Assembly (NCBI GenBank): GCA_021730635.1
Contig: JAJNNC010000024.1
Location: 1 to 35,742, forward strand
Length of the DNA stretch: 35,742 nucleotides
Direction: 5' to 3'
DNA from: Catalimonadaceae bacterium JC749
GTDB lineage: Bacteria > Bacteroidota > Bacteroidia > Cytophagales > Cyclobacteriaceae
Position 1 is the first letter of the stretch, and each line of letters opens with the position of its first letter. Made by a program: the position numbers and the translations under genes. The notes beneath the pieces are model-generated. The model was not told the origin of the DNA, did not search any database, and was given only the letters and a program-made list of their open reading frames with translations. This document shows positions 7,867-23,301 of the stretch, piece after piece.

Positions 7867-10467
7867 TTATTGTTTAATTACCTTTAGCAACCTCACCGCC
7901 TGATCCTCTGAGACAATTTGCAGAACATACATTCCCGCAGGTATAAGAGCAGACGTACTTACCTGAATACTGCCTCTTACCCTAGAAACTTCCACAGGAT
8001 ATTGTTTTCCATCCAAGCCAAAAAGTCTCACTTCAGGAGCGTTGGCTTCTAAGGCTGTGTTGATAAACAACCGATCCTGGAAGGGGACAGGATATACCCT
8101 ATAATGATCGTTTAGAGGCATTATTGATTCTATATCCAATTTCTCCTGCCCTTTTTTATCTCCCTGCTTAGCCAGTCTGGCATTACTGTCATCAATAACG
8201 GTAAAGTGGATCTCTAGAGGAGTACCTGCCGCTCCTTGTTTGTTCTTTTCTGGATAAGGAATCGCTATCAAGGTATACTCTCCAGGAAGAAAAGCCTGAC
8301 CGAATATGTCATTGTCAGAATCACTAAATAAAGTATAGGGTTTGGTATTTTCAATACGGTTATAGTTTATGGGGCCTTTCAGTGCTACTTTTACACTACC
8401 CACAAAATCAGGCATGGTATGAATAAGAATCGTAAGTTCATTATGAAGTAACTCATCCAAATCAATCACAGCGTACTGTTGAATCTCTGCTATCTTTCCA
8501 TCTGTGACGGCATCATAGAGATCAAAGCCAGTGACCTGAGAATGATCTGTCTCATCACTGTTAATAATTGTGAAGTTGATTTCTAAAGGTGCACCTGCTA
8601 TACCACCTTTCTGCTTCTCTGGGTAGGGGGTAGCTATCAGCGTATAGGCTCCCGGTTTGAATTTCCGGCCGATATAATCTCTGCTATTATTATCAGTATT
8701 CAGTTTATCTCCGAAGAGAGCATAAGGCCAATTATTTTCTATACTCTCATGAGTAAAGGGACCTTTTAATCTAAAGGCCACACTGCCTACAACATAAGGC
8801 AAAGTATAGGCAGTTATATTTAGCTTTGTGCTGGGGAGCGTAGCCAGATCAATCACATCACCATCATTAAGGGGTACTATCTCTTGATCAGCATCAACAT
8901 ACACCAAGCCAAGTCCTTCAATTGAATGATCATACATTACTTGAAAAGAAATCGCTAATGCAGTACCTGCCTCACCACCAAGGTAAGGGGTAACCGCCAG
9001 CGTATAGGCTCCCGGTTTGAATTTCCGCCCGGTATAATCTCTACTATTATCATCAATATTTAGTTTATCTCCGAATAAGAAATAAGGGTATTGCTTTTCT
9101 ACCTGTGTATGTGAGAGGGGACCTGTTAGCTCCAGTATAACACTATCTAAGTGCACAGGTAAGGTATTGGCTTGAACAGTCAGGCGGGGATTGTCTAGTT
9201 GTAAGAGGTCGATAGTATCCCCATCCTGCAAAGGAAATAAAGATTGATGATAATCAGCATGGACCAAAGTAAGATTTTTGATGGATACCTCCTCATCAGT
9301 TGTTTCCCTGATTTTAACGATCCAGTAGTCACCAGAATCCTCTGTTCCTCTGTTATTGTCACTCTTATCTCCTGAAGCATTAGATTCAGAATACCCTGCT
9401 AGCAGATATCCTCCATCCGCTGCAGGAATCGCGCTTTGTAAATCATCTCCACCATCACCACCTATTGTTTTATCCCACAGCTTATTGCCGTTAGCATCTA
9501 TCTTGACGATCCAATAATCAGTTTCACCTTTACTATCTTCACTCTTATCCCCGGAAGCAGAAGAATTAGAAGGTCCCCCCAGCAGATAACCTCCATCTGC
9601 CGTAGAGATGGCACTTCTTGGACTTTCACTACCAATCCCGCCTAATGTTTTATCCCACAGTTTATTGCCATTAGCATCTATCTTAACAATCCAATAATCA
9701 GTTTCACCTTTGCTATCCTCACTCTTATCTCCTGAAGCATTAGATTCAGAATATCCTGCTAGCAGATACCCTCCATCCATAGTAGTGGTTACAGCCAAAA
9801 CCCTCTCTCCCTTACTACCTCCTAATGTTTTGTCCCACAGTTTATTTCCACTCTCATCTATCTTGACGATCCAATAATCCAACTCACCTCTGCTGTTTTC
9901 ACTTTTATCACCTGAAGCATCAGAATTAGAAGAGCCAGCCAACAGGTAACCTCCATCATCAGTAGGAATCGCGCTTTGTAATTCAACATCACTATCACTT
10001 CCAAAGATTTTATCCCACAGTTTATTTCCATCGGCATCTATTTTTACAATCCAGTAATCTACATCGTCACTATTCTCACTCTTATCTCCTGAAGCAGAGG
10101 AACTAGACATCCCCTCTAGCAGATACCCTCCATCCGCTGTAGGAATAGCGCTAATAAGATCATCAAAACTATCGCCTCCTATAGTTTTATCCCATTGTTT
10201 GTTACCGCTGGAATCAAGTTTAACAATCCAATAGTCATTTGAAGATATACCTTTATTTTCTTCACTTTTATCACCTTCAGCACCGGAATAAGAAGAACCT
10301 GCCACTAGATAGCCTTCATCGGCAGTAGGTACTACATCTGTAGGTGTGTCCCAAAAATCTCCCCCAAAGGTTTTATCCCATTGTACAGTTACTTGTGCCG
10401 TCGCAGAAAAAGTGCAAGCCAGCAAGCCACAGCTTACCAGCACTGCTAAGTTAAGTGTATATTTCAC
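7867..10467 (-). CDS. Large secreted repeat protein with type IX secretion sorting domain
   Basis: An 866-residue exported protein. Residues 1-25 form a signal peptide ending TATAQ-like (SATAQ). Residues 28-387 contain six units of about 60 residues, each opening WDKxxGG, continuing DGGYLLxG and SASGDKS, and closing DYWIVKID; this looks like a beta-propeller-type repeat. Residues about 397-760 contain three units of about 120 residues ending FKPGAYTLxATPY and (G)TxLxIxF, a beta-sandwich module common in Bacteroidota surface proteins. Residues about 785-866 are a type A T9SS C-terminal domain (YRVYPVPFQDRLFI, PAGMYVLQI, KVIKQ). It would be exported through the outer membrane by PorU-type machinery and anchored or released. 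A weak -7 match lies at 10556-10563. Ligand unknown. Confidence 0.88.
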   Translation of the reverse strand: MKYTLNLAVLVSCGLLACTFSATAQVTVQWDKTFGGDFWDTPTDVVPTADEGYLVAGSSYSGAEGDKSEENKGISSNDYWIVKLDSSGNKQWDKTIGGDSFDDLISAIPTADGGYLLEGMSSSSASGDKSENSDDVDYWIVKIDADGNKLWDKIFGSDSDVELQSAIPTDDGGYLLAGSSNSDASGDKSENSRGELDYWIVKIDESGNKLWDKTLGGSKGERVLAVTTTMDGGYLLAGYSESNASGDKSEDSKGETDYWIVKIDANGNKLWDKTLGGIGSESPRSAISTADGGYLLGGPSNSSASGDKSEDSKGETDYWIVKIDANGNKLWDKTIGGDGGDDLQSAIPAADGGYLLAGYSESNASGDKSDNNRGTEDSGDYWIVKIRETTDEEVSIKNLTLVHADYHQSLFPLQDGDTIDLLQLDNPRLTVQANTLPVHLDSVILELTGPLSHTQVEKQYPYFLFGDKLNIDDNSRDYTGRKFKPGAYTLAVTPYLGGEAGTALAISFQVMYDHSIEGLGLVYVDADQEIVPLNDGDVIDLATLPSTKLNITAYTLPYVVGSVAFRLKGPFTHESIENNWPYALFGDKLNTDNNSRDYIGRKFKPGAYTLIATPYPEKQKGGIAGAPLEINFTIINSDETDHSQVTGFDLYDAVTDGKIAEIQQYAVIDLDELLHNELTILIHTMPDFVGSVKVALKGPINYNRIENTKPYTLFSDSDNDIFGQAFLPGEYTLIAIPYPEKNKQGAAGTPLEIHFTVIDDSNARLAKQGDKKGQEKLDIESIMPLNDHYRVYPVPFQDRLFINTALEANAPEVRLFGLDGKQYPVEVSRVRGSIQVSTSALIPAGMYVLQIVSEDQAVRLLKVIKQ
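8188..9279 (-). repeat. Three tandem coding repeats of about 120 codons
   Basis: Residues about 397-760 of the T9SS-sorted protein. The first two units are the closest: both contain LFGDKLN, DNNSRDY or DDNSRDY, and GRKFKPGAYTL, and long identical DNA strings are visible around 8655-8730 and 9015-9080. The third unit is more diverged. Confidence 0.75.
9307..10386 (-). repeat. Six tandem coding repeats of about 180 bp
   Basis: Residues 28-387 of the T9SS-sorted protein, with unit starts at Trp30, Trp92, Trp151, Trp211, Trp271 and Trp331. Units four to six share nearly identical blocks at DNA level, which suggests recent duplication or gene conversion. Such arrays can change copy number between strains. 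Confidence 0.8.
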
Positions 10468-10980: not shown

Positions 10981-10998
10981 TTATTTCCCGATACAAAA
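10981..10998 (+). repeat. Left attachment repeat (attL), remnant of the old mnmE end
   Basis: TTATTTCCCGATACAAAA matches TTACTTTCCGATACAAAA at 21931-21948 in 16 of 18 positions, with an identical 11-base core CCGATACAAAA (10988-10998). Read on the minus strand it still encodes FCIGK and a TAA stop. The two differences lie outside the core, on the side that comes from the chromosome at this junction. Confidence 0.85.
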
Positions 10999-11236: not shown

Positions 11237-12307
11237 ATGGAATTAGAAAAACTACTTTCATCTATACAAGAAAGAATACCATACAATCAATTTAGAGCTT
11301 TATTGAAAAAAGTTGAATTGCCACCCAGTAATGGATGGGATAATACTTTTAAAAAAATAAGACAGGAAGTTGAAAGTGAAGCTGAAAATATTGAAGAAAA
11401 AATTGAGAAATTGTTATTAGCTTATCGTGAACATTTGCTAGTAGGTGAGAAGGCAGTTAAATTTTTTAAGATTAAACCTTCACTTATTCAGAGTTTATTA
11501 AATCAGGCAGAAGGGTTGAAATATGATGAGTGTCCATTTACTCAGGCGTTTCCGTTTTTTTTAGATGATGAAAATTCTAATAATGTACATCCATCCAACT
11601 TATATTTTATTAAAAAACTTAAACATACTAATGGATTAGCTTTAATTTTTTTCTCCAAAAAATACTTTCAAGAAAAGCAATCATTAGATGTAAGCACAAT
11701 CAACGACTCTCTAACAAGAGAATATTTTGATCAATTTCAAGAAGTTTATGGGTTAAAGCAAAATATAAAGCAATTCGCAGATATTGTTTTTATCAATAAA
11801 AAAGAAAATTTAGTAGAATATAGGTTAGATATAAGAAACTTTTCACGTGATGAGCGAAAAAAAGGGTTTGGCTTAATTCATAAAAAGTTTGTTAATCTTT
11901 TCCCATCAATTGATTTTTCAGAGCGAACATTCAGCGCATTGAATTTTTACCCTTTGCTGAATAAATTTTATGAATCTAGTGAGGGAAGAGTGTGTGAGCT
12001 GGGTTTTACAACTGATGAAGGCGCAATAAAAAAAGATAGAATGAGATTCAAGAATACTGACTTAAGATATGAAACCTTTCATCATGCAGGTAGAAAAGCA
12101 GTTACCTTAATAACACCATACAAAATTGGTGTGGTTTGGGAAAAGGAAAACTATGTTGACGAGAATATAGAATTAATCATTCCAGGAACAATTAGTTTAT
12201 TGACTCAAAGTCAGTTTCCGGTTATTGATGAGGTTATTTTAACGGGTTGTATGAATCTAAATGATTGTGAAAACGTTAAAAATAAGATCTTAAGGTTTCT
12301 AAGATAA
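11237..12307 (+). CDS. Unknown protein, first gene of the cargo operon
   Basis: A 356-residue soluble protein with no signal peptide or membrane segment. I do not recognise a family. Residues about 35-75 are rich in Glu and Lys and look helical or coiled (IRQEVESEAENIEEKIEKLL). The C-terminal part (about 230-356) looks like alternating beta strands and ends with a short helix. It is the first gene of a plus-strand trio; the next gene starts about 30 bases after its stop. Its A+T content fits the element and not the chromosome. Because the operon ends in a nuclease-like protein, a sensor or effector role in defence is a guess from context only. Confidence 0.7.
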   Translation: MELEKLLSSIQERIPYNQFRALLKKVELPPSNGWDNTFKKIRQEVESEAENIEEKIEKLLLAYREHLLVGEKAVKFFKIKPSLIQSLLNQAEGLKYDECPFTQAFPFFLDDENSNNVHPSNLYFIKKLKHTNGLALIFFSKKYFQEKQSLDVSTINDSLTREYFDQFQEVYGLKQNIKQFADIVFINKKENLVEYRLDIRNFSRDERKKGFGLIHKKFVNLFPSIDFSERTFSALNFYPLLNKFYESSEGRVCELGFTTDEGAIKKDRMRFKNTDLRYETFHHAGRKAVTLITPYKIGVVWEKENYVDENIELIIPGTISLLTQSQFPVIDEVILTGCMNLNDCENVKNKILRFLR

Positions 12308-12341
12308 TTGCTTATTTAAAAACCTATTTGTAAATTTAGTG

Positions 12342-12773
12342 ATGAACTTGGATGAACTATTGGAAATTATTCGTGAAGACTGGAAGGATTTCCCGGTTCA
12401 TAAGAGTGTTTGTCAAGCTATCTCAACTTACATCTATAATAACTCCCACAAGCTTAATCATATTTCATTTGCAAGTATCAAGGTTCTATTAGAAGAAGAT
12501 CCCATCAACGATAACCCATCCAGTGATTTAATAATTCTTGAAGCTATTCAATATTTATCTGGTTCCCGTGCAAATGTTTTAGATATCAAATTTGAATTTT
12601 ACGATGGGAACGACTTTTATCAGCTTGATAAGAAAGATGTTGCAGAGGCGGAAAATACTAAAGAATTTTTTCACCCTATAAACGGCAATAATATTGAAGA
12701 TTTCAGCGAAAAAATCTTTATGTATTTTGTTCCTAGTAAGCATCTAATATCTACTCTTCATGAGTCAGCCTGA
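12342..12773 (+). CDS. Small unknown protein, second gene of the cargo operon
   Basis: A 143-residue acidic protein, counted from ATG at 12342; a GTG immediately before it (12339) is an alternative start. Residues 1-60 look helical (LDELLEIIREDWKDF, SVCQAISTYIY), and the rest is mixed, with EFYDGNDFYQLDKKDV. I recognise no family and see no catalytic motif or membrane segment. Its last 14 bases overlap the next gene, so the two are probably translationally coupled, and their products may work as a complex. Confidence 0.7.
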   Translation: MNLDELLEIIREDWKDFPVHKSVCQAISTYIYNNSHKLNHISFASIKVLLEEDPINDNPSSDLIILEAIQYLSGSRANVLDIKFEFYDGNDFYQLDKKDVAEAENTKEFFHPINGNNIEDFSEKIFMYFVPSKHLISTLHESA

Positions 12774-13425
12774 TTTAAGTGATTTAAGTTTAGCACAAAT
12801 AAAATTAATTTGCAGATTTAATCCCAGAGTTAAGAATATGTTATCTCGAGAATTAGTAGATAACTATTCTGATTTTGTGGCTCAACTATATTTAGATATT
12901 GACCAAAGCATTATTAAGATTGAGGATGGTAGGCACTTGCAGCAAGACTCAGGAGAAGACTTACTAACCGTTCAAATTGTAAATATGCTAAATCTAATAG
13001 GTTATAATGCAAGCCATGATAAAGAAAAGGGAGGCCATGTAGATTTAGTTGTTGAGAAAGATGAATTTACTTGGCTAGGAGAGGCAAAAATATTTGGAGG
13101 CACTAACACTTACTTATGGGAAGGTATCTTGCAACTTACAACCCGATATGCAACTGGTCGACCTAATGCGAATTGTGGAGGTTTGGTAGTTTACATATTT
13201 GATGAAGATGCTAAATCAATTATGGACAATTGGGCTACTTATATTTCAAATAAAGAAGACTTAGAAGATTATAAAGGCAGTAAATGTCCAAAGAATCCAT
13301 TGGCCTTTTTCTCACAGTTTAAAAATAAAGTATCAGGACTAGAATATAAAGTTCGGCACATTCCTGTATTATTACATTTTAATCCACAAGATAAAAGTGG
13401 ACGGAGAAGAAATAAGACGAAATGA
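12760..13425 (+). CDS. PD-(D/E)XK nuclease-like protein, third gene of the cargo operon
   Basis: A 221-residue protein with the signature of a restriction-like nuclease core. A helix with Glu66 (SGEDLLTVQIVNMLNLIGY) is followed by HVDLVVE with Asp95 and LGEAKIF with Glu108 and Lys110, giving E-D-ExK in the right order, and then LQLTTRY with Gln125 in the position of the QxxxY-type motif. The family uses Mg2+ to cleave DNA or RNA. The N-terminal 60 residues are helical and unassigned. It overlaps the previous gene by 14 bases and ends about 50 bases before a convergent gene. I infer a defence or anti-competitor nuclease; the target is unknown. Confidence 0.75.
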   Translation: MSQPDLSDLSLAQIKLICRFNPRVKNMLSRELVDNYSDFVAQLYLDIDQSIIKIEDGRHLQQDSGEDLLTVQIVNMLNLIGYNASHDKEKGGHVDLVVEKDEFTWLGEAKIFGGTNTYLWEGILQLTTRYATGRPNANCGGLVVYIFDEDAKSIMDNWATYISNKEDLEDYKGSKCPKNPLAFFSQFKNKVSGLEYKVRHIPVLLHFNPQDKSGRRRNKTK

Positions 13426-14691: not shown

Positions 14692-16086
14692 TCAGTATGA
14701 TTTAGTGTTTAATACTTGTCTTAATTCCTGTAATCGGCTAAGGTATGGTAAGAAAGCCTGTTTGCCATTATTGGCTTTAACAGTGGCAAAGTGATTTTCA
14801 ACGAATAAAGAAACATTGCTTATCCTGTTACTCTGACTTAATGTTATAGGTATATTTGGCAGTGATGTATTGGCAAAGTATGAATCTAGTTCGGCAATTT
14901 CCCTGCTCCAACATTCAGGTTTTATCAGGTTATTACTATTCTCAATATGAGATTTTATAAGGTTTTCTTCTTCCTGAATATCAAGTTTTATCAAGTCCTG
15001 AACACTAAGTTTCGCTAAGTTTTGAGGTTCAATAAATCGCTTATAATCAAGCTTTACTAAGTAATCAGCCAAATCTACTCCCCGCTTTTTTTCTTCTTCT
15101 GTTGCTTTACATTCCAGAAGATCGGAAACAGTAAATTTAAAAAGGTACTTTTTTGCAGTATTTGTCCATTTTTCAAATACCGTTTCTTTACCCTCTTTTG
15201 GTTTTGAAGCATCAGGAAATAAAAAAACGTGTCGCCCACTATCATTTAAAGTCTCACATTTTTCTTTATTTAAACCCTCCGCACCACCTGTTGCCAACGA
15301 AATAAATTGAGGAAAATAAACGCTTGCAATGACAGTTGTTTTCTCACTTTCAAATAAAAGAATTGATTTTTTATCATTCCCATTTGTTTTATCCTGTAAC
15401 AAATGTTCACCGAATAAACATTGCTTCAAATGATACTGCTCCTGATCAAAATAAGCCCCTTTCATGGCTTTGTGTGTCCAGGCAATATGATTGTTAGGTT
15501 CTTTCACTCTTTTGCCTGTAGCAGGGTTATAAAGCATTATTTTGCCTGCTCGTATTTTGCCATGAGTGTCAATTTGCCAAAAGACTGTAGCTGCCTCCCA
15601 ATGCTTTGATGTACCTATAAAATAACGGCCTACTAATTGGTTTTTTACCTCAACACCAAATAGACTTTTAAGATACGTTACAAAATGATTCTTTTCATGG
15701 CTTTTCAAACTCCCTTTGAATATATCAATTGGGATAAAAGAAACTGGTTGTGGTTGAACTGTTTCTGTATCTGAACTGAAGTTTTCTGTAGTAGTTCTAT
15801 TATCTTTTTTGTTTTGAGTGTTAAGTTTTGTTAAGGTCTGATAGCTCATTTTCTGACTGTAATAATCATCACCTAAAGAGCTTTTATTATCCTCAAAATA
15901 TTCCTTTGGCGTATAATGATAACCACAGTTATTTATTCGTTCACATCTCCCAACATCAGGCGATAAATGTTCGCCTGTTTCCGTATCTATGTATCTACTG
16001 AATACTTTACTTCTATTACATTGTGGGCAGTTGTACCGGGTATTCATCCCCTCATACGGTTTTAGTATGTATCTGTAATGACTCAT
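14692..16086 (-). CDS. DUF6371-type primase/Toprim-like protein
   Basis: Close in layout to DUF6371 proteins of Bacteroidota mobile elements. An N-terminal zinc finger has CPQC, then GRC and CGYHYTP (four Cys at 20, 23, 48 and 54 from Met at 16086), like the CHC2 finger of DnaG primases. A later region has LLFESEKTTVIA and VFLFPDASKP, resembling the Glu and Asp motifs of a Toprim fold. It probably primes replication of the excised element together with the upstream ATPase. I choose ATG at 16084-16086, because family members start close to the HYRYxLKPY motif and the alternative ATG (16108-16110) lies inside a dyad repeat; the alternative adds eight residues. Confidence 0.78.
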   Translation of the reverse strand: MSHYRYILKPYEGMNTRYNCPQCNRSKVFSRYIDTETGEHLSPDVGRCERINNCGYHYTPKEYFEDNKSSLGDDYYSQKMSYQTLTKLNTQNKKDNRTTTENFSSDTETVQPQPVSFIPIDIFKGSLKSHEKNHFVTYLKSLFGVEVKNQLVGRYFIGTSKHWEAATVFWQIDTHGKIRAGKIMLYNPATGKRVKEPNNHIAWTHKAMKGAYFDQEQYHLKQCLFGEHLLQDKTNGNDKKSILLFESEKTTVIASVYFPQFISLATGGAEGLNKEKCETLNDSGRHVFLFPDASKPKEGKETVFEKWTNTAKKYLFKFTVSDLLECKATEEEKKRGVDLADYLVKLDYKRFIEPQNLAKLSVQDLIKLDIQEEENLIKSHIENSNNLIKPECWSREIAELDSYFANTSLPNIPITLSQSNRISNVSLFVENHFATVKANNGKQAFLPYLSRLQELRQVLNTKSY

Positions 16087-16101
16087 AATTTCAAATTTTG
16101 C

Positions 16102-16153
16102 TCGTACCATTCGTACCGGTCGTACAGGTGTACGAGAGGTACGAGGCGTACGA
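16102..16153. repeat. 52-bp dyad of six TCGTAC half-sites in 9-bp register
   Basis: TCGTAC occurs at 16102-16107, 16111-16116 and 16120-16125, and its complement GTACGA at 16130-16135, 16139-16144 and 16148-16153. Each arm has an exact 9-base period and all three pairs share one centre, 16127.5. It sits in the 78-base gap between the RepA-like gene and the DUF6371 gene. It may be an iteron-like origin, an operator, or an RNA hairpin controlling the downstream gene. Confidence 0.85.
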
Positions 16154-16188
16154 ATTTACTTGGTACTTCTTTCTTCAAACTTCTTTAT

Positions 16189-17232
16189 TCATTTTCTCAC
16201 GGTTCCTTCTGATACACTATACCTTCTGCCAATCTCTACATTTGAAATACCTTGCTTTTTTAATTCCATTACTTCAGAAATACGCTGTTCTTTATCCCCA
16301 TTAGAGAGTTGTTTTAAGTGTTCAAACTCCGTTGAGAAATCAATAAACTCAAACTGTAGGAAGTTGAAAGCTTTGTTTATTTGACATAGATATACGTTAT
16401 CAGCATCATACCTCTTTTCTTTTGCCCTTACTTTAATCTGCTTCAAGTAGCGTAAAGAATTATCTGTATGGCTTTCTCCTATTGCAAAAATGCTATCAGC
16501 TAAAATTGAAAGCATCTTGCTACCCTGCACGTCATTCACATTTAAAGGTCTTGAATTATCTCTTTTCGGAGTATGTGCTAATGCAAGGATAGAAAGATTA
16601 TACCTATTTTTTAATGCCTTCAAATGCTTCATCAATGGCAAAGCATCTTTTGCTTTTTCCGTTTCGTTCTTCAGATAGGTAAGGTTATCAATGATCAGCA
16701 CCTTAGCCCCTGTTTCAACAATACTCTGTTCTAAAGAATGATTTAGGTATTCCTCAAAATTTGAAAATGATTTTGGTTGTTCTGCTTCTGGATTGATTTC
16801 AGCTCTTTTGAAATTGTCATCAAAGTCATAATGCTCAGCATATTCTATTGAATACCTGTTCTCAAATTGCTTATCGGAAAGTTCAAAATCAAAATACAGA
16901 ATAGGTTGTTTAGGGGCTTCCAGTTTAAAGCCCCTTATTTGTTCTCCCCTACTGATACTATTACCAATCTGAACAGCTAGTATTGATTTACCTAAATTAG
17001 TGTCAGCAAACAAAATACATAGCTCTCCCTCAAACCAAAATTCTCCAAATAGCATTTTGGGAATAGGTCTGGTCTTCGCCTGGTCTATCCAACGATTACC
17101 AGTTTTTACTGTAAACAATCCTTTGCTTTCATTGGCTTCGTTGGCCTTTTTAAAAAGCTCCTCGGTTTCAGCCTGAATATCATCAACACCAATACCGTAT
17201 TTCTCAAATTCAAATTCAGGTTCAAGACTCAT
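16189..17232 (-). CDS. RepA-like AAA ATPase/helicase with C-terminal HTH
   Basis: A 347-residue RecA-fold ATPase of the RepA/AAA_25 type. The P-loop is ADTNLGKS with Lys82 and Ser83, a variant of GxxxxGKS with Ala in place of the first Gly. ILYFDFELSD follows at about 111, the Walker B motif is VLIIDNL with Asp182, and LALAHTPKR fits the sensor segment. Hexameric helicases of this type unwind plasmid origins. The last 20 or so residues (ISNVEIGRRYSVSEGTVRK) form a resolvase-type helix-turn-helix, so the protein may also bind DNA. The start overlaps the preceding gene by 11 bases. The 52-bp dyad lies directly downstream and is a candidate binding site. Confidence 0.82.
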   Translation of the reverse strand: MSLEPEFEFEKYGIGVDDIQAETEELFKKANEANESKGLFTVKTGNRWIDQAKTRPIPKMLFGEFWFEGELCILFADTNLGKSILAVQIGNSISRGEQIRGFKLEAPKQPILYFDFELSDKQFENRYSIEYAEHYDFDDNFKRAEINPEAEQPKSFSNFEEYLNHSLEQSIVETGAKVLIIDNLTYLKNETEKAKDALPLMKHLKALKNRYNLSILALAHTPKRDNSRPLNVNDVQGSKMLSILADSIFAIGESHTDNSLRYLKQIKVRAKEKRYDADNVYLCQINKAFNFLQFEFIDFSTEFEHLKQLSNGDKEQRISEVMELKKQGISNVEIGRRYSVSEGTVRK

Positions 17233-17987: not shown

Positions 17988-20180
17988 TTACCACTTCCTT
18001 TTTACTTTGTCTCCAAAGTTATTTTTGGTTTGTTGATAGTCCCAATTTGTGAAATTATCGGTTAACAATCTGATGTATTTTTCTTGGCACTGTTGAGTAT
18101 TTTCGTACTCTTTCCAACTCATATCGTAAAATTGGTAAAAGCGTTTGACTAGAAAAAGTTTCTCTCTTGTAGCCATATTAAAAGTCTGTTTTGGCTCTTC
18201 TTCTTTCCCTAAAAATGCTCTTTTGATGAATGAATTGAATTCCTCTTCTGTAAGAAAGGGTTTTCCATTTTTACTTTTTCGTTGTGTAAATACTTCAAAG
18301 TGCTGAATTACCATTTTCAATGGCATTGATTTACAAAAGAGATTTATTGTTTCTGAATCAAAAGGAGTTGTAGCTTCCTGTAATGTATTGGTTTCTATGG
18401 GTTCAGGTTCTTTTTTCCCAAGAATATATTTTCTAACTATTACTAATTTGTTTTTCGCGTCAATATAATTACGTAGTTTTTTTACTAAATCATAGAAATC
18501 ATTAATAGACCTTTTTTGCATCTCAGAACTATAGAAATAGTTATTTATGTTATCCTTTGTCGCTATAAAAACTTCACTATCATAAAAACCATCTATAAAG
18601 TAGCCGTATTCTTTTACCGTATTTTCTTCAATTTCTTTAATCTCTGACACAATTCTATCAAATAGCTTAGACAAGTAATTCTTCCTACTGTTATCATCAA
18701 AAGTATATTGCTGAAATTCTTTGTCAAGAAACGCTTTATAAGTATTTATCTCCTGTTCATCCCATGTATATTTCTTTTCATTGATTAAAACATCAATATA
18801 TTTGGTTCTAGCGCATATTTCTTTGTAACAGTTCATTACATACAGTGGTGGTTCAATTTCTAATTTTTTGAAATTATTCATCACATCTTCTGCAATTGCT
18901 AAATTATCAAATGTGCCACAAAGTCTTAATCTGCTTAATTCTTCAATAAACCAACTAGCATCTGACTCTATCTGCTTTTTCTCAAAAAGATCAAAAATCT
19001 TATTTGCTAAATCATTCATTAATGTTTTATCAAACTTGCAATTTGATCTAAATGCTTTATTATACTTTTCTTTTTCAATATTATACAGGTCAATTATTTG
19101 CAGTATTAAATCTCCTTTTTCCAAATTATTAAAGCAATTACTTATTTGCCCTTGATGTTTTTCTGTCCCATCCTGTTCCTCAGGTTGAGGTGTTTTATTT
19201 AGAAAAGGTGTGATTTCTTCAAAGTATTTTTTTTCATCTTTAAACCACCTCTTTAACATTTTAATGTACTCCTTCTTTTCATCAGTTGGTTTTCCCTTTA
19301 GTAGATGTAATTTAAGCCTTCTGTTCTCATTAATTAATTCTATTTGAATTTGAGCTTCATCTTTGATAAGGCCTTTCTTATAAAGATTTACTCCATTTAC
19401 CTGCTGTAATAAATTTTCTGTCACATTAATCAATTCTTTGATCAAACTATTCTTTGTATGCATTTTGGATCTACTTGTACCTAAATAGGGATTATATTCG
19501 GGCTTCCCTTTTAATATGGGCAAATGCTTTTCATAATACTGCTTAAGTTCTTTAAAATAGCTTAATTCAAATGGAAAAATACTTAGCCAATCTTGATAAG
19601 TATTAATAAGTACATTCAAGTCTGTTTTTTGTGTTTCCTTTGGATTGATGTAGGAGTTTATGTACTCTGTAATTCTTTTGCTCTTTTCAGGTGGTAAGTC
19701 CTTATTGGTTTTTATCAGTTCATTTATTAATCTCAAAAAATAACCCTTTTGAACTGGTTCTCCACAGCCTTCAGGCATTAGCCCAAGACTTTGAACTGTA
19801 TAATCAACATAGTCAGTTACAATTTTATACCAATTTTTATCATCTACATTGTTTATAATATGTTGATTAGTAAAAATAACTTTGTTAGCAACTTGTGAAG
19901 GAATATCACCAAAGAAATTCTTATTAAACCATTTTTCCTTTGCTAAATTGGCATGAGCTTCACAACAGAATGGGAACTTTTCAAATGAACGTTTAACGCT
20001 ATTGAATATAATTTTATAGTTATCATTGCAAGACTGACAATACTTGTAATCGTGCTCTCCCTCAGTCGGTTTAGTCTCAAATGGCAGTTCAAACCTACTG
20101 CCTGACACCTCATAAATATTTGCATTACAAAATTTAATTGCTTTAATAGAGTCGACAAAAAATGCTGTATGTCTAATCAT
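17988..20180 (-). CDS. Large unknown protein of the element backbone
   Basis: A 730-residue, charged, mostly helical protein with no signal peptide or membrane segment. The N-terminal 80 residues carry YCQSC at 47-51 and FCCEAH at 71-76, a plausible zinc-binding knuckle (Cys48, Cys51, Cys72, Cys73 and His76). The rest is rich in Lys, Glu and Asn without a catalytic motif that I can see; the C-terminus ends in a basic KVKRKW. The family is not recognised. It sits 20 bases after the integrase stop and before the regulatory genes, a fixed backbone place. Roles in packaging, interference or replication are all possible and unsupported. Confidence 0.72.
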   Translation of the reverse strand: MIRHTAFFVDSIKAIKFCNANIYEVSGSRFELPFETKPTEGEHDYKYCQSCNDNYKIIFNSVKRSFEKFPFCCEAHANLAKEKWFNKNFFGDIPSQVANKVIFTNQHIINNVDDKNWYKIVTDYVDYTVQSLGLMPEGCGEPVQKGYFLRLINELIKTNKDLPPEKSKRITEYINSYINPKETQKTDLNVLINTYQDWLSIFPFELSYFKELKQYYEKHLPILKGKPEYNPYLGTSRSKMHTKNSLIKELINVTENLLQQVNGVNLYKKGLIKDEAQIQIELINENRRLKLHLLKGKPTDEKKEYIKMLKRWFKDEKKYFEEITPFLNKTPQPEEQDGTEKHQGQISNCFNNLEKGDLILQIIDLYNIEKEKYNKAFRSNCKFDKTLMNDLANKIFDLFEKKQIESDASWFIEELSRLRLCGTFDNLAIAEDVMNNFKKLEIEPPLYVMNCYKEICARTKYIDVLINEKKYTWDEQEINTYKAFLDKEFQQYTFDDNSRKNYLSKLFDRIVSEIKEIEENTVKEYGYFIDGFYDSEVFIATKDNINNYFYSSEMQKRSINDFYDLVKKLRNYIDAKNKLVIVRKYILGKKEPEPIETNTLQEATTPFDSETINLFCKSMPLKMVIQHFEVFTQRKSKNGKPFLTEEEFNSFIKRAFLGKEEEPKQTFNMATREKLFLVKRFYQFYDMSWKEYENTQQCQEKYIRLLTDNFTNWDYQQTKNNFGDKVKRKW

Positions 20181-20200: not shown

Positions 20201-21316
20201 TTATAAAATTAATTTAATTCTTTCTGCTGCCTCCTGTTTTTGCTTATCTACTATCTTAGCGTAAACCTGCGTAGTTTTTAGCTCACGATGTCCCAGCATC
20301 TTAGAAACAGTGTAAAGGTCTGTTCCCAAAGATAGCTGTAAGGTGGCAAACGTATGCCGGAAACAATGAAAAGAGATGTCTTTTGATATTCCTGCCTTTA
20401 ATACCCATTGCTTTAAATGGATATTAGTATAAGCTGAATATTTAAGCCCTTCAAAAACTCTGACAGTAGGTTCTTTGCGTTCACCTAATAAGCCGTATGC
20501 CTGTTCGGAGATAGGTAACACTTCGACTCCTTTGGTTTTCTTTTGTCTAAAGTGTAATGAATGATGATTTCCGCTTTGCCTTACTTCACTCCAAACTAAT
20601 TTCTGAATGTCAGAAAACCTCAGCCCTGTTAAAGCTGAAAACAAGGCAGCCTGCTTGAGAATAGGTAAAGAGCATTCTATGTGAGCCAGGCATTGGAGTT
20701 CTTCAATGGTTAAAAACTGCCTTTCTGTTTCAGCCTGTTTGATGGACTGTACTTTTGCATTTAAATCGGTTTGTAAATAACCATCTTTAAAAGCTTGTTT
20801 TAAGGCTGCTTTTAGCTTATTGAAATAAGAAACCGTTGAATTTTGAGATAGAGTTTTTTTGTTACTCCTGCTACTGGGTGCAGTAATAAGATACTCTCTA
20901 AACTCATTACAAAAGTGTTCGTTAAGGTCTGCAAATCGTAAGCTACCTCCTGTAAATTTCTCTAAATAATTCAAAGCTGAATACCAGTTGTCAGAATTAC
21001 TCCCTGTCCGTTTAGCTGCTAAATCTCTGAAATACTGAACAAAATCAGCATTGCGTTTGCCATTTGAAAGAAAGCCATAGTTGCCGTTTTGTACTTCTAT
21101 TTGTCTTTTTGCCCTAATGTTTTCTGCCAGCGTCTTTGTTTCCTTGTTGTGCTGTTTCTCAATAGGTGTTTTAGGTTTATCAAGCACGTACAGTTTTAAA
21201 AATTCTCTTCTGGTTAGCTTTCCTGTTGCTGGGTGTGGGATGGGTGGATAATAGTCCAGATAGAGCGTTTGCCTATTACCTGATATTGGTTTGCACCTTA
21301 GTTTTACTTTAGTCAT
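20201..21316 (-). CDS. Tyrosine site-specific integrase
   Basis: A 371-residue tyrosine recombinase. The N-terminal region is a Bacteroidota-type arm domain, about 90-185 a SAM-like core-binding domain, and about 200-371 the catalytic domain. Catalytic residues are all visible: Arg233 in ALTGLRFSDI, Lys262 in KKTKGVE, His317 and Arg320 in FHCFRHTFA, His343 in LGHRELKTT, and nucleophile Tyr352 in QVYAKI. It would catalyse integration and excision between an attP and the mnmE attB. Its place next to an excisionase-like gene and close to the right attachment repeat supports this. The gene appears intact. Confidence 0.95.
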   Translation of the reverse strand: MTKVKLRCKPISGNRQTLYLDYYPPIPHPATGKLTRREFLKLYVLDKPKTPIEKQHNKETKTLAENIRAKRQIEVQNGNYGFLSNGKRNADFVQYFRDLAAKRTGSNSDNWYSALNYLEKFTGGSLRFADLNEHFCNEFREYLITAPSSRSNKKTLSQNSTVSYFNKLKAALKQAFKDGYLQTDLNAKVQSIKQAETERQFLTIEELQCLAHIECSLPILKQAALFSALTGLRFSDIQKLVWSEVRQSGNHHSLHFRQKKTKGVEVLPISEQAYGLLGERKEPTVRVFEGLKYSAYTNIHLKQWVLKAGISKDISFHCFRHTFATLQLSLGTDLYTVSKMLGHRELKTTQVYAKIVDKQKQEAAERIKLIL

Positions 21317-21336: not shown

Positions 21337-21690
21337 TTATGCAAATAGTTTGTCCACTTCGGATCGCTTGATAAGTGTCTTTTTTAGCTTAATATTTACC
21401 GCTTTTAAGTTACCTGCATTAATCAGGTTGTAAACGGTTTGGCGGGAACAGTTCAATAACTTTGAAGCATCTCGTACAGTAAGAAATTCTTTAGCTTTAA
21501 TTGCTTCAATGGGTTGGCTTTTGACTATAATTGTTTCCTTATTACTATTCTCGACCTTTTCAGCTCGTTTCCTGGCTTTATAAGCCTGCTTAGCGCACCT
21601 ATCACTGCAACATCTGGTAACGGTTGTTCTGGCTTCAAACTCATTACCACAGTGCTGGCAAATTCTGGTAATTCTAATGTTAGAACTCAT
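21337..21690 (-). CDS. Excisionase-like protein with N-terminal zinc finger
   Basis: A 117-residue protein. Residues 10-33 contain ICQHCGNEF and CCSDRCAKQAY, a treble-clef-like zinc finger often found in mobile elements. Residues 66-117 contain FLTVRDASKLLNCSRQTVYN and KAVNIKLKKTLIKRSEVDKLFA, an excisionase-family winged helix that fits an AlpA/Xis-like protein. It starts 20 bases upstream of int. The combination of zinc finger and HTH is common for directionality factors in Bacteroidota. Binding to the AGGTACAA cluster about 80-130 bases upstream of its start is likely but inferred. Confidence 0.82.
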   Translation of the reverse strand: MSSNIRITRICQHCGNEFEARTTVTRCCSDRCAKQAYKARKRAEKVENSNKETIIVKSQPIEAIKAKEFLTVRDASKLLNCSRQTVYNLINAGNLKAVNIKLKKTLIKRSEVDKLFA

Positions 21691-21930: not shown

Positions 21931-21948
21931 TTACTTTCCGATACAAAA
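21931..21948 (+). repeat. Right attachment repeat (attR), overlapping the mnmE 3' end
   Basis: TTACTTTCCGATACAAAA is the reverse complement of the last codons of mnmE and includes its stop. It matches 10981-10998 in 16 of 18 bases. The two differing bases are at third codon positions of Gly and Lys, so the protein is the same from either copy. The identical 11-base core (21938-21948) is the likely crossover region. Confidence 0.87.
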
Positions 21949-23301
21949 CTTGGAGAAGATGTTTCCTAACAGATCCTCTGTCGTGATCTCACCTGTGATC
22001 TCTCCCAGATAATGCAGGGCATGTCGGATGTCCTGGGCCAGAAAATCCTGGGTAATGCCACTATCCAAACCTTTCAGCACATCCTCCAGGGCTTCCTTTG
22101 TCTTGACCAGGCTATCGTAATGACGCACATTGGTTACAATGGTACCACTGGTGGAAAACTTGTTCAGGTCTACCAACGCCATGATTTTGTCTTTCAAGCC
22201 CTCCAGATTTTCTCTTTTCTCTGCTGAGATATAAACAATATCCGGTATAGACTCTAATGCCTTTAACAGGTCCGGTTGTGCCTGGTCTATTTTGTTGCCG
22301 ACCCTGATAAAAGGAATGCCCAGGTTTTCCAATACATTGATATCTTTCTGGATACTGGTGATGGTTTCCTCCGTGAGGTCAAACAGAAAAATAATGAGAG
22401 AGGCTTGCTTCATCTTGGCATACGTCCGCTCTACCCCTATGGCTTCTACCTTGTCTGTGGTTTCCCGTAAACCGGCAGTGTCTATAAAGCGGAAGCTAAT
22501 GCCGCCTAGAAGAATTTCATCTTCTATAAAATCCCGGGTGGTACCAGGAATATCAGATACAATTGCTTTTTCTTCATTCAGCAAAGCATTCAGCAAGGTA
22601 GACTTGCCCGCATTGGGTTTCCCGGCAATGACGGTGGGCACTCCGTTTTTGATGACATTCCCCAGGGCAAAGCTGTTGATCAGGGCATTCACAACCCGTA
22701 AAATATCCTCTACCAGCCGGCGCAGATCATCCCGACTGGCAAACTCCACGTCTTCTTCCACAAAATCCAGTTCCAGCTCTATCATAGACGCAAAATGTAC
22801 CAACTGTGCCCGCAAGTCTTTGATCTCCTGTGAAAAGCCACCCCGCATCTGGTTCAACGCTGTCTTATGGGATATTTCAGAATCTGAAGCGATCAGGTCG
22901 GCCACGGCCTCTGCCTGAGCCAGATCGAATCGGCCATGCATAAAAGCCCGCTTGGTAAATTCTCCGGCCGTGGCCAGTCGGGCACCGTGTTTTAACAAGA
23001 GTTGTATGATCTGACGAACGATAAAAGGAGAACCATGACAGCTAATCTCTACTACATCTTCTCCTGTGAAAGAGTGAGGTGCTACAAACAGAGAAACGAC
23101 CACCTCGTCGAGTACTTTTTCTCCGTCGCGAATACTGCCATAATGCAGGGTATGGCTAGGCTGCCGGGTCAGATCTTTGCCCTTAAACACCCGGTTACTG
23201 ATAGCAATGGCTTCTTTACCTGATAAACGGATGACGGCAATAGCGCCTGTCCCTTCAGGCGTGGAAAGCGCTACGATGGTATCGTCTATAGCATAATGCA
23301 T
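21931..23301 (-). CDS. mnmE: tRNA modification GTPase MnmE
   Basis: MnmE works with MnmG to install the cmnm5 or nm5 group on wobble uridine-34 of several tRNAs, in the cytoplasm. The 456-residue product shows the N-terminal folate-binding domain ([18 protein letters not shown]), the helical domain and an inserted G domain: P-loop GKPNAGKS, switch region GTTRDF, DTAGLRE and NKID. The C-terminus ends CIGK with Cys453, the conserved catalytic cysteine. The 3' end is the integration site of the element, which restores the last codons. The gene is therefore intact. Transcription would end at the element-borne terminator 37 bases further on. Confidence 0.97.

Follow-up and report, generated by a model that had tools for sequence, protein, structure and literature searches.

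A 9-bp-periodic array of six half-sites as the candidate iteron-type origin of an integrative element, probably read by the C-terminal tail of the element's own helicase

The window analysed here, a stretch of 35,742 bp from Catalimonadaceae bacterium JC749 (contig JAJNNC010000024.1), contains a putative integrative element next to mnmE, in which an array of six 6-bp half-sites separates a helicase gene from the gene of a probable primase. The helicase gene (16189..17232, minus strand) encodes the 347 aa protein P0001, an AAA_25 / DnaB-like helicase on which Pfam recognises the families AAA_25 (8.6e-18) and DnaB_C only. Its last part (16192..16287, minus strand, with a boundary of our own setting) encodes a C-terminal helix-turn-helix (HTH) tail that ends inside the third, or recognition, helix. 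The DUF6371 gene on the same strand (14692..16086) encodes a protein with a Zn ribbon and a predicted DnaG-like catalytic fold, an assignment based on Pfam, the starts of its relatives and the predicted fold. The array (16102..16153, no strand assigned) is flanked by these two genes and is proposed to be the binding array of the helicase HTH and the core of the replication origin.

The left arm of the array consists of three copies of TCGTAC on the plus strand (16102-16107, 16111-16116 and 16120-16125) and the right arm of three copies of GTACGA, on the minus strand (16130-16135, 16139-16144 and 16148-16153), arranged around a dyad centre at 16127.5. The half-sites keep exact 9-bp steps within each arm, the central spacer is AGGT (4 bp) and the remaining spacers are CAT, CGG, GAG and GGC. 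A scan of the window for exact 6-mer runs of at least three copies with period 9, from which words with fewer than three different bases were excluded, found the half-sites of the array alone, and an equivalent dyad was obtained in 0/300 mononucleotide shuffles of the window, so that the six-site dyad of the preliminary description is real. The window has 14 copies of TCGTAC where 4.9 would be expected, and the array accounts for six of them. The DUF6371 start ATG at 16110 falls inside the dyad, but relatives of the protein start with, for example, MSEHRYILEPYKG (L103), and the ATG at 16084-16086 of the window (MSHYRYILKPYEG) matches the start of relatives such as L103. The start was therefore moved from 16110 to 16086, which leaves the dyad wholly intergenic and makes the gap between the helicase and DUF6371 genes probably 102 bp (16087-16188) and not, as had been stated, 78 bases.

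The helicase was searched for in 1571 genomes, in overlapping samples each of which counts the window's own genome, and was matched in 34/390 genomes of the family sample, 32/390 of the order, 31/395 of the class and 25/395 of the phylum. Further loci were the best 80 of at least 513 from named genome contigs together with 31 viral contigs. The resulting set, which was defined with the helicase profile and leans to close relatives, is the source of all counts given below. Scoring of arrays used 6-bp words and covered the final 45 nt of each helicase gene plus the 180 nt downstream, with a score of 3 as the cut. Among 184 non-redundant open reading frames (ORFs), which include weak helicase matches (at least 30 bits) and exclude duplicates, open ORFs and those with less than 80 nt downstream, 108 have an array scoring at least 3 at or just past the helicase stop, as do 0/920 shuffles (highest score 2.5). 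For helicases of at least 200 bits an adjacent array is called in 96/154. As the chain scoring permits steps of 8-10 bp, the finding that 278/323 steps measure nine bp depends on the method; the autocorrelation, which assumes no word, does not. Over the 90 nt after 120 representative helicases it gives z 31.6 at lag 9, 14.7 at lag 18 and 5.5 at lag 27, and a control region 150-240 nt downstream of the stop gives z 2.5 at lag 9. A chance or low-complexity origin of the array is ruled out by the shuffles, the recurrence and the autocorrelation.

In 73 cluster representatives the array has six sites in 40, seven in 12, five in 8, four in 5 and other numbers in 8; the 3+3 layout is found in 36/73, and asymmetric arrays (2+4, 2+5, 4+3) are also found. 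The 11 arrays of the TCGTAC class with a 3+3 layout have a mean frequency of the commonest base of 0.98 in the half-site columns against 0.48 in the spacer columns, which upholds the earlier remark that the register is kept while the spacers vary; words and register appear to be kept by selection while the spacers drift. The same layout with other words, including TGTTACA, GTTCAC, TGTCCC, TCGCAC and GCGTAC among more, is found in other elements. Lack of half-site conservation in related elements had been named beforehand as the outcome that would overturn the idea, and the arrays do recur. In 100/176 helicase loci a same-strand DUF6371 gene either follows the helicase end by up to 600 nt or overlaps it by at most 400 nt. 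The hosts of array-bearing relatives are mostly Bacteroidota; six loci (L133, L138, L147, L148, L167 and L175) come from metagenome-assembled genomes labelled as Geobacteraceae, Bacillota, Azovibrio, Rhizobium or Acidobacteria, which may be misbinned. Expanded arrays of 10-15 sites are present in L122, L085, L064, L088 and L194, that of L085 with eight same-strand copies. A second pair of the same word at 9-bp spacing is found elsewhere in the locus in 11/59 long loci (L104, L131, L137, L144, L147, L148, L151, L154, L193, L194 and L199), an arrangement that recalls the ori/crr pair of P4.

The word of the array follows the HTH tail of the helicase. This was assessed with 71 representatives of at least 200 bits with a called array, a set that is thus made up of array-bearing helicases, and with cut-offs for word similarity (0.75 and 0.5) that are our own choice. 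Word similarity correlates with HTH identity at r 0.564 and with core identity at r 0.143. In a partial Mantel test, which controls for core similarity and not for full phylogeny, r(HTH, word given core) is 0.553, with 0/2000 permutations as high, and r(core, word given HTH) is 0.053 (179/2000 permutations). The 132 pairs with HTH identity above 0.7 comprise 121 with the same word, 11 intermediate and 0 clearly different, and among the 1268 pairs with HTH identity below 0.35 the word is the same in 21 and clearly different in 990. L176 and L150, whose cores are 91% identical and whose HTHs are 30% identical, have the words GTTACA and GTGAAC, respectively. The nearest HTH neighbour shares the word in 59.5/71 cases and the nearest core neighbour in 24/71, at a random-pair rate of 0.18; when neighbours are limited to those with cores at most 70% identical, the numbers are 53.2 and 15. 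The four positions that covary most strongly with the word (columns 341, 324, 339 and 335) are located where helix 2 begins and within the recognition helix. The primase does not follow the word in this way, with a partial r of 0.057 between word and primase identity given the HTH, and with the same word from the nearest primase in 18.5/53 cases against 45/53 from the nearest HTH. As a fitting negative control, 0/11 HTH-less relatives of the helicase (L201-L211, from viral contigs roughly 46 to 413 kb long) have an array. Since the word covaries with the HTH and not with the core or the primase, the array word is very probably bound by the C-terminal HTH tail of the helicase. A recognition code of one residue to one base was rejected, as GCGTAC pairs with HTHs with and without the helix-2 arginine (L121 and L193 versus L120). 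Eight helicases (L126, L127, L138, L158, L160, L173, L180 and L190) have an FNSFKVxVxRIV-like C-terminal segment instead of the usual HTH, together with GTAACA/GTTACC-like words. The helicases of L008, L007, L056 and L057 end in an acidic or polar stretch followed by PF (DDDFPF in L008, DDEPF in L056), which resembles the C-terminal tip of single-strand binding protein, and by this analogy such endings might recruit single-strand binding protein partners.

The helicase of L107, whose tail is intact, was modelled with a mean predicted local distance difference test score (pLDDT) of 83, and the 50 listed of its 442 PDB matches at E<=0.001 are structures of KaiC, DnaB, T7 gp4 and RadA, some of them entries with no protein in the title that we take to belong here. 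As judged from L107, relatives of the helicase carry a separate C-terminal domain of the DNA-binding type with three helices (317-332, 337-344 and 348-363), which is truncated in the window copy; in 10-residue blocks its pLDDT is 78-87, and 54 in the last block. The model of the DUF6371 protein (pLDDT 86.6) has 32 PDB matches at E<=0.001, all of them DnaG, T7 gp4, T4 primosome or Twinkle chains, with low whole-chain template modelling scores (0.17-0.32 of the query). The low scores indicate that only part of the fold is shared with DnaG-type chains, presumably the catalytic region, and on this model the protein is a probable DnaG-type primase; a search of PDB by sequence with the primase profile gave no match. 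In L191 the slot usually held by DUF6371 after the array is taken by a protein with BT4734-like_N and PriCT_2 domains (L191:5148-6068), and PriCT-2, primase-associated by its Pfam name, fits a primase slot.

Several relatives are found as apparent free circles. Of 11 viral contigs checked, four (L183, L185, L187 and L191; 6.1-7.8 kb) end in exact repeats of 96-127 bp, which mark a circular assembly, and the three of these that were scanned (L183, L187 and L191) each encode an integrase, the helicase and a primase-like protein. A search of the four contigs for direct repeats of at least 16 nt ranked the array first only in L191 and is not used as evidence. Eight plasmid records encode a helicase of 42-43% identity, and the three examined are circular; these were found by protein, a plasmid search with the raw DNA of the region giving no match. 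One record, CP103138.1 (L214, 10,057 bp), has a gene content close to the gene list of Tn4555 (PMC13183296). Three TGTCCC and three GGGACA sites with steps of 9, 8, 20, 8 and 10 lie at L214:1008-1068, within the helicase gene (1-1098) and towards its 3' end, so that the array also codes for the protein tail. This array was missed by the period-9 scan, noticed by eye and then measured, and the L214 HTH resembles the HTHs of other TGTCCC arrays. L217 has the same layout as L214. In a Butyricimonas plasmid (L216:8415-8710), TGTCCC sites cluster twice, first within the end of the helicase gene and again past it.

It is proposed that the array is the iteron-type replication origin of the excised circle and is read by the helicase itself, a reading that we regard as likely, the case for binding by the helicase tail being strong and that for origin function less so. 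It merges two suggestions of the preliminary description, an origin and a site for the HTH tail, both of which gain from the recurrence of the arrays and from words that track the helicase HTH. Excision from the mnmE site would yield a circular element, as the circular forms of relatives suggest. The C-terminal HTH of the helicase would then, in all likelihood given the covariation of word and HTH, bind the 6-bp half-sites, one HTH per site, and the two facing sets of sites would bring helicase subunits together head to head, the 3+3 layout pointing to a pair of opposed helicase assemblies. The ring-forming helicase may in this way be assembled or held at the array without a separate initiator such as RepC, and the DnaG-type primase of the neighbouring gene, as its predicted fold and the gene order suggest, would prime the opened strands. 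Helicase tails, array and adjacent primase would together make up a minimal initiation set. Because HTH and word change together, lineages would acquire origin specificities of their own by replacing the HTH. With 10.5 bp to the turn, a step of 9 bp rotates successive sites by about -51 degrees, near one-sixth or one-seventh of a turn. A bolder extension, which we put forward only tentatively and consider rather doubtful, is that the six sites mirror a six-subunit ring, the tails of a single ring, or those of two half-rings that meet face to face at the dyad, each holding one site and wrapping the DNA so that the array templates the ring, with the exchangeable HTH as an address of origin identity and compatibility across Bacteroidota elements including those of the Tn4555 type. 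The agreement between six sites and six subunits is appealing without being proof, and such helicase rings can also have seven subunits.

A number of points weigh against this proposal. Neither binding data nor replication data were found on any member. The A+T content near the array rises only mildly (0.69-0.72 in the 40 bp after it and 0.69 in the 20 bp before it), and its profile contains no clear AT-rich unwinding element beside the array. Lag 9 also stands out in the coding control 150-240 nt upstream of the stop (z 6.5), as do lag 6 (z 9.3) and lag 27 (z 8.1), a pattern that codon structure is expected to produce. The Mantel test leaves full phylogeny uncontrolled, and the next covarying columns, 315 and 310, lie in or before helix 1. 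In L214 the steps are irregular and the sites lie deeper in the gene than the region scored, and the second same-word pairs of the long loci make a role in regulation or partition possible. An adjacent array was not called in 58/154 helicases of at least 200 bits, 23 of which are explained: 11 are HTH-less, nine have TCGTAA repeats further downstream, one has its array about 2 kb upstream and two are gene fragments with the array at the other part of the gene. In the nine loci, seven of them titled Flavobacterium, the repeats lie about 190-245 nt downstream, past an apparent short ORF as seen by eye, and the HTH is near the TCGTAC-class HTH. The other 35 array-less helicases are unexplained, some of them with related words at other steps (by eye) or with sites outside the scored region. 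The helicase of the window, finally, ends at VRK (16189-16212) inside the recognition helix and so loses column 341, that of top covariation, and the 21 other helicases with TCGTAC-word arrays in which the motif was found extend 7-14 residues past this end. The window copy of the helicase module may therefore be impaired; its array is nonetheless perfect, which leaves two possibilities, a shortened tail that still works or a loss of recent date.

The array might also bind the helicase HTH and yet serve as an operator or as an incompatibility or partition site, the helicase repressing or coupling primase expression while replication starts elsewhere. The position of the array upstream of the primase start in many loci, given how often DUF6371 lies near the helicase end, and the second same-word pairs would suit such a role. 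The L214 array, however, lies inside the helicase gene, a poor position for a promoter, the period-9 scan found no comparable second array in the window, and the HTH sits on the helicase and not on a separate repressor, so we hold this explanation to be unlikely. A reader of the array other than the helicase is conceivable, in that the primase with its Zn ribbon, the HTH_17 protein and the integrase are all encoded close by, but is very improbable: in L191, where a different family supplies the primase-like gene, the array still accompanies the helicase, and the primase comparison given above rules out the primase as the reader.

The dyad could instead act as a hairpin of RNA or single-stranded DNA, that is as an attenuator, as the translational hairpin for DUF6371 that the preliminary description had considered, or as a single-strand priming site. 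The predicted fold is indeed strong, with an RNA z of -3.9 in the window and of -3.5 to -6.1 in four relatives, but any dyad folds by nature. Among 48 symmetric arrays, deviations between mirrored sites are compensated at 1/31 positions, and the mirror-wise match of the spacers is 0.307 against 0.269 (standard deviation 0.028) by chance. Asymmetric arrays, together with arrays that lie inside the helicase gene or some 190-245 nt downstream of it, speak against a hairpin as well, and the word follows the helicase HTH and not the downstream gene. This explanation, the translational hairpin included, is accordingly given hardly any weight.

The remaining features of the element are consistent with an integrative lifestyle. 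A tyrosine recombinase (integrase; 20201..21316, minus strand) and an HTH_17 protein of presumed excisionase-like role (21337..21690, minus strand), both upstream of the helicase gene, were recognised by Pfam, and mnmE (21931-23301, minus strand) adjoins the element with its 3' end. A candidate attachment (att) repeat of 18 bp at the far end (10981..10998, plus strand) is identical at 16/18 positions to its partner at the mnmE 3' end (21931..21948, plus strand); the pair is family D12, one of 18 direct-repeat families, and was picked since one of its two copies coincides with the end of mnmE. These repeats would bound an integrase element of about 10.95 kb next to mnmE, which shares an integrase, an excisionase-like gene and candidate att repeats with integrative (mobilizable) elements of the Tn4555 kind. 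Among the scanned proteins, neither Pfam nor NCBIfam recognised a relaxase or mobilization gene, with several ORFs, including one of 730 aa (17988-20180), left unassigned. A Rep_3- or RepC-type initiator had no Pfam match among the scanned element proteins, seven of which have no Pfam match of any kind, and an initiator of an unrecognised type among these seven is possible. The tRNA scan found none, and little was gained from NCBIfam and PHROGs. Within the element, three neighbouring genes on the plus strand (11237-13425) match PHROG 12777, 11490 and 9664, families of unknown function, and nothing in Pfam; they are regarded as cargo. Beside the element, a unit of about 180 nt is repeated in tandem five to six times (9346-10384) inside an 866-aa gene with a Por secretion tail (7867-10467).

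Taken together, a candidate origin, initiator helicase and primase are defined for a broad, mostly Bacteroidota group of elements that includes those of the Tn4555 type, the protein tail is tied to the DNA word in a way that can be read, and DUF6371 gains a probable role as a DnaG-type primase.

In origins of the RSF1010 type, the helicase RepA forms hexamers, has a RecA fold and is of the AAA_25 kind, and the iterons are read by RepC. The origin proposed here differs in that the Pfam scans recognised no such separate RepC and the helicase bears its own HTH. Searches of titles and abstracts found no description of the present array, subscription papers being mostly uncovered and novelty thus not proven, and the Prevotella repeats of PMC4755523, as far as that source was accessible, are unrelated to it. 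The accessible part of a review of ring helicase loading makes no mention of iterons (PMC3401641), and that of a 2017 review of integrative and mobilizable elements treats the maintenance of the excised element under the heading 'An Unexplored World' and states that its replication had never been studied (PMC5704250, section 2.2). SGI1 of Salmonella has since been shown to replicate from an iteron oriV with 17-bp iterons downstream of rep, according to the part available of PMC7433901. In some proteins of the PrimPol-PV1 group C-terminal winged helices follow P-loop ATPase domains, including those of the RepA type, and are proposed to recognise the origin; the order of RepA-type helicase domain and C-terminal winged-helix domain is alike, whereas the primase there is fused to the helicase and of the archaeo-eukaryotic primase (AEP) type, and the accessible text describes no arrays (PMC5862659). 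The gene list of Tn4555 includes an AAA ATPase and a DUF6371 protein (PMC13183296), and the Tn4555-type record L214 has both this pair and a 3+3 TGTCCC array; it differs in the position of the array inside the helicase gene, its irregular steps, another HTH and word, and other cargo and target. No account of Tn4555 replication was found in the literature searched.

The closest functional parallels come from staphylococcal elements, as described in the accessible part of PMC7581432. Rep of the Staphylococcus aureus pathogenicity islands (SaPI) is a helicase encoded on the element, and its C-terminal domain recognises short repeats that lie immediately past the gene for Rep; a primase is encoded as well. 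The Cch2 and CCPol-MP proteins of the staphylococcal cassette chromosome SCCmec likewise form a helicase-primase pair, with a C-terminal domain that binds downstream repeats and a proposed self-loading, but the Cch2 site consists of three 5-nt direct iterons (PMC7581432), and both helicase and primase belong to families unrelated to the present ones. SaPI Rep is related to helicases of the DUF927 or D5 type, according to PMC7581432, whereas the present core is AAA_25 with a DnaB/T7 gp4-like fold and, lacking a DUF927 or D5/primase C-terminal type core, does not belong to SaPI Rep or SCC Cch by descent. The present system is further set apart by its three-helix HTH tail, typically six 6-bp sites at 9 bp, often in a 3+3 layout, and its mostly Bacteroidota hosts. 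As proposed here, it works like SaPI Rep and Cch2 but belongs to other protein families, which suggests a second emergence of the SaPI-type solution, this time on a different helicase fold.
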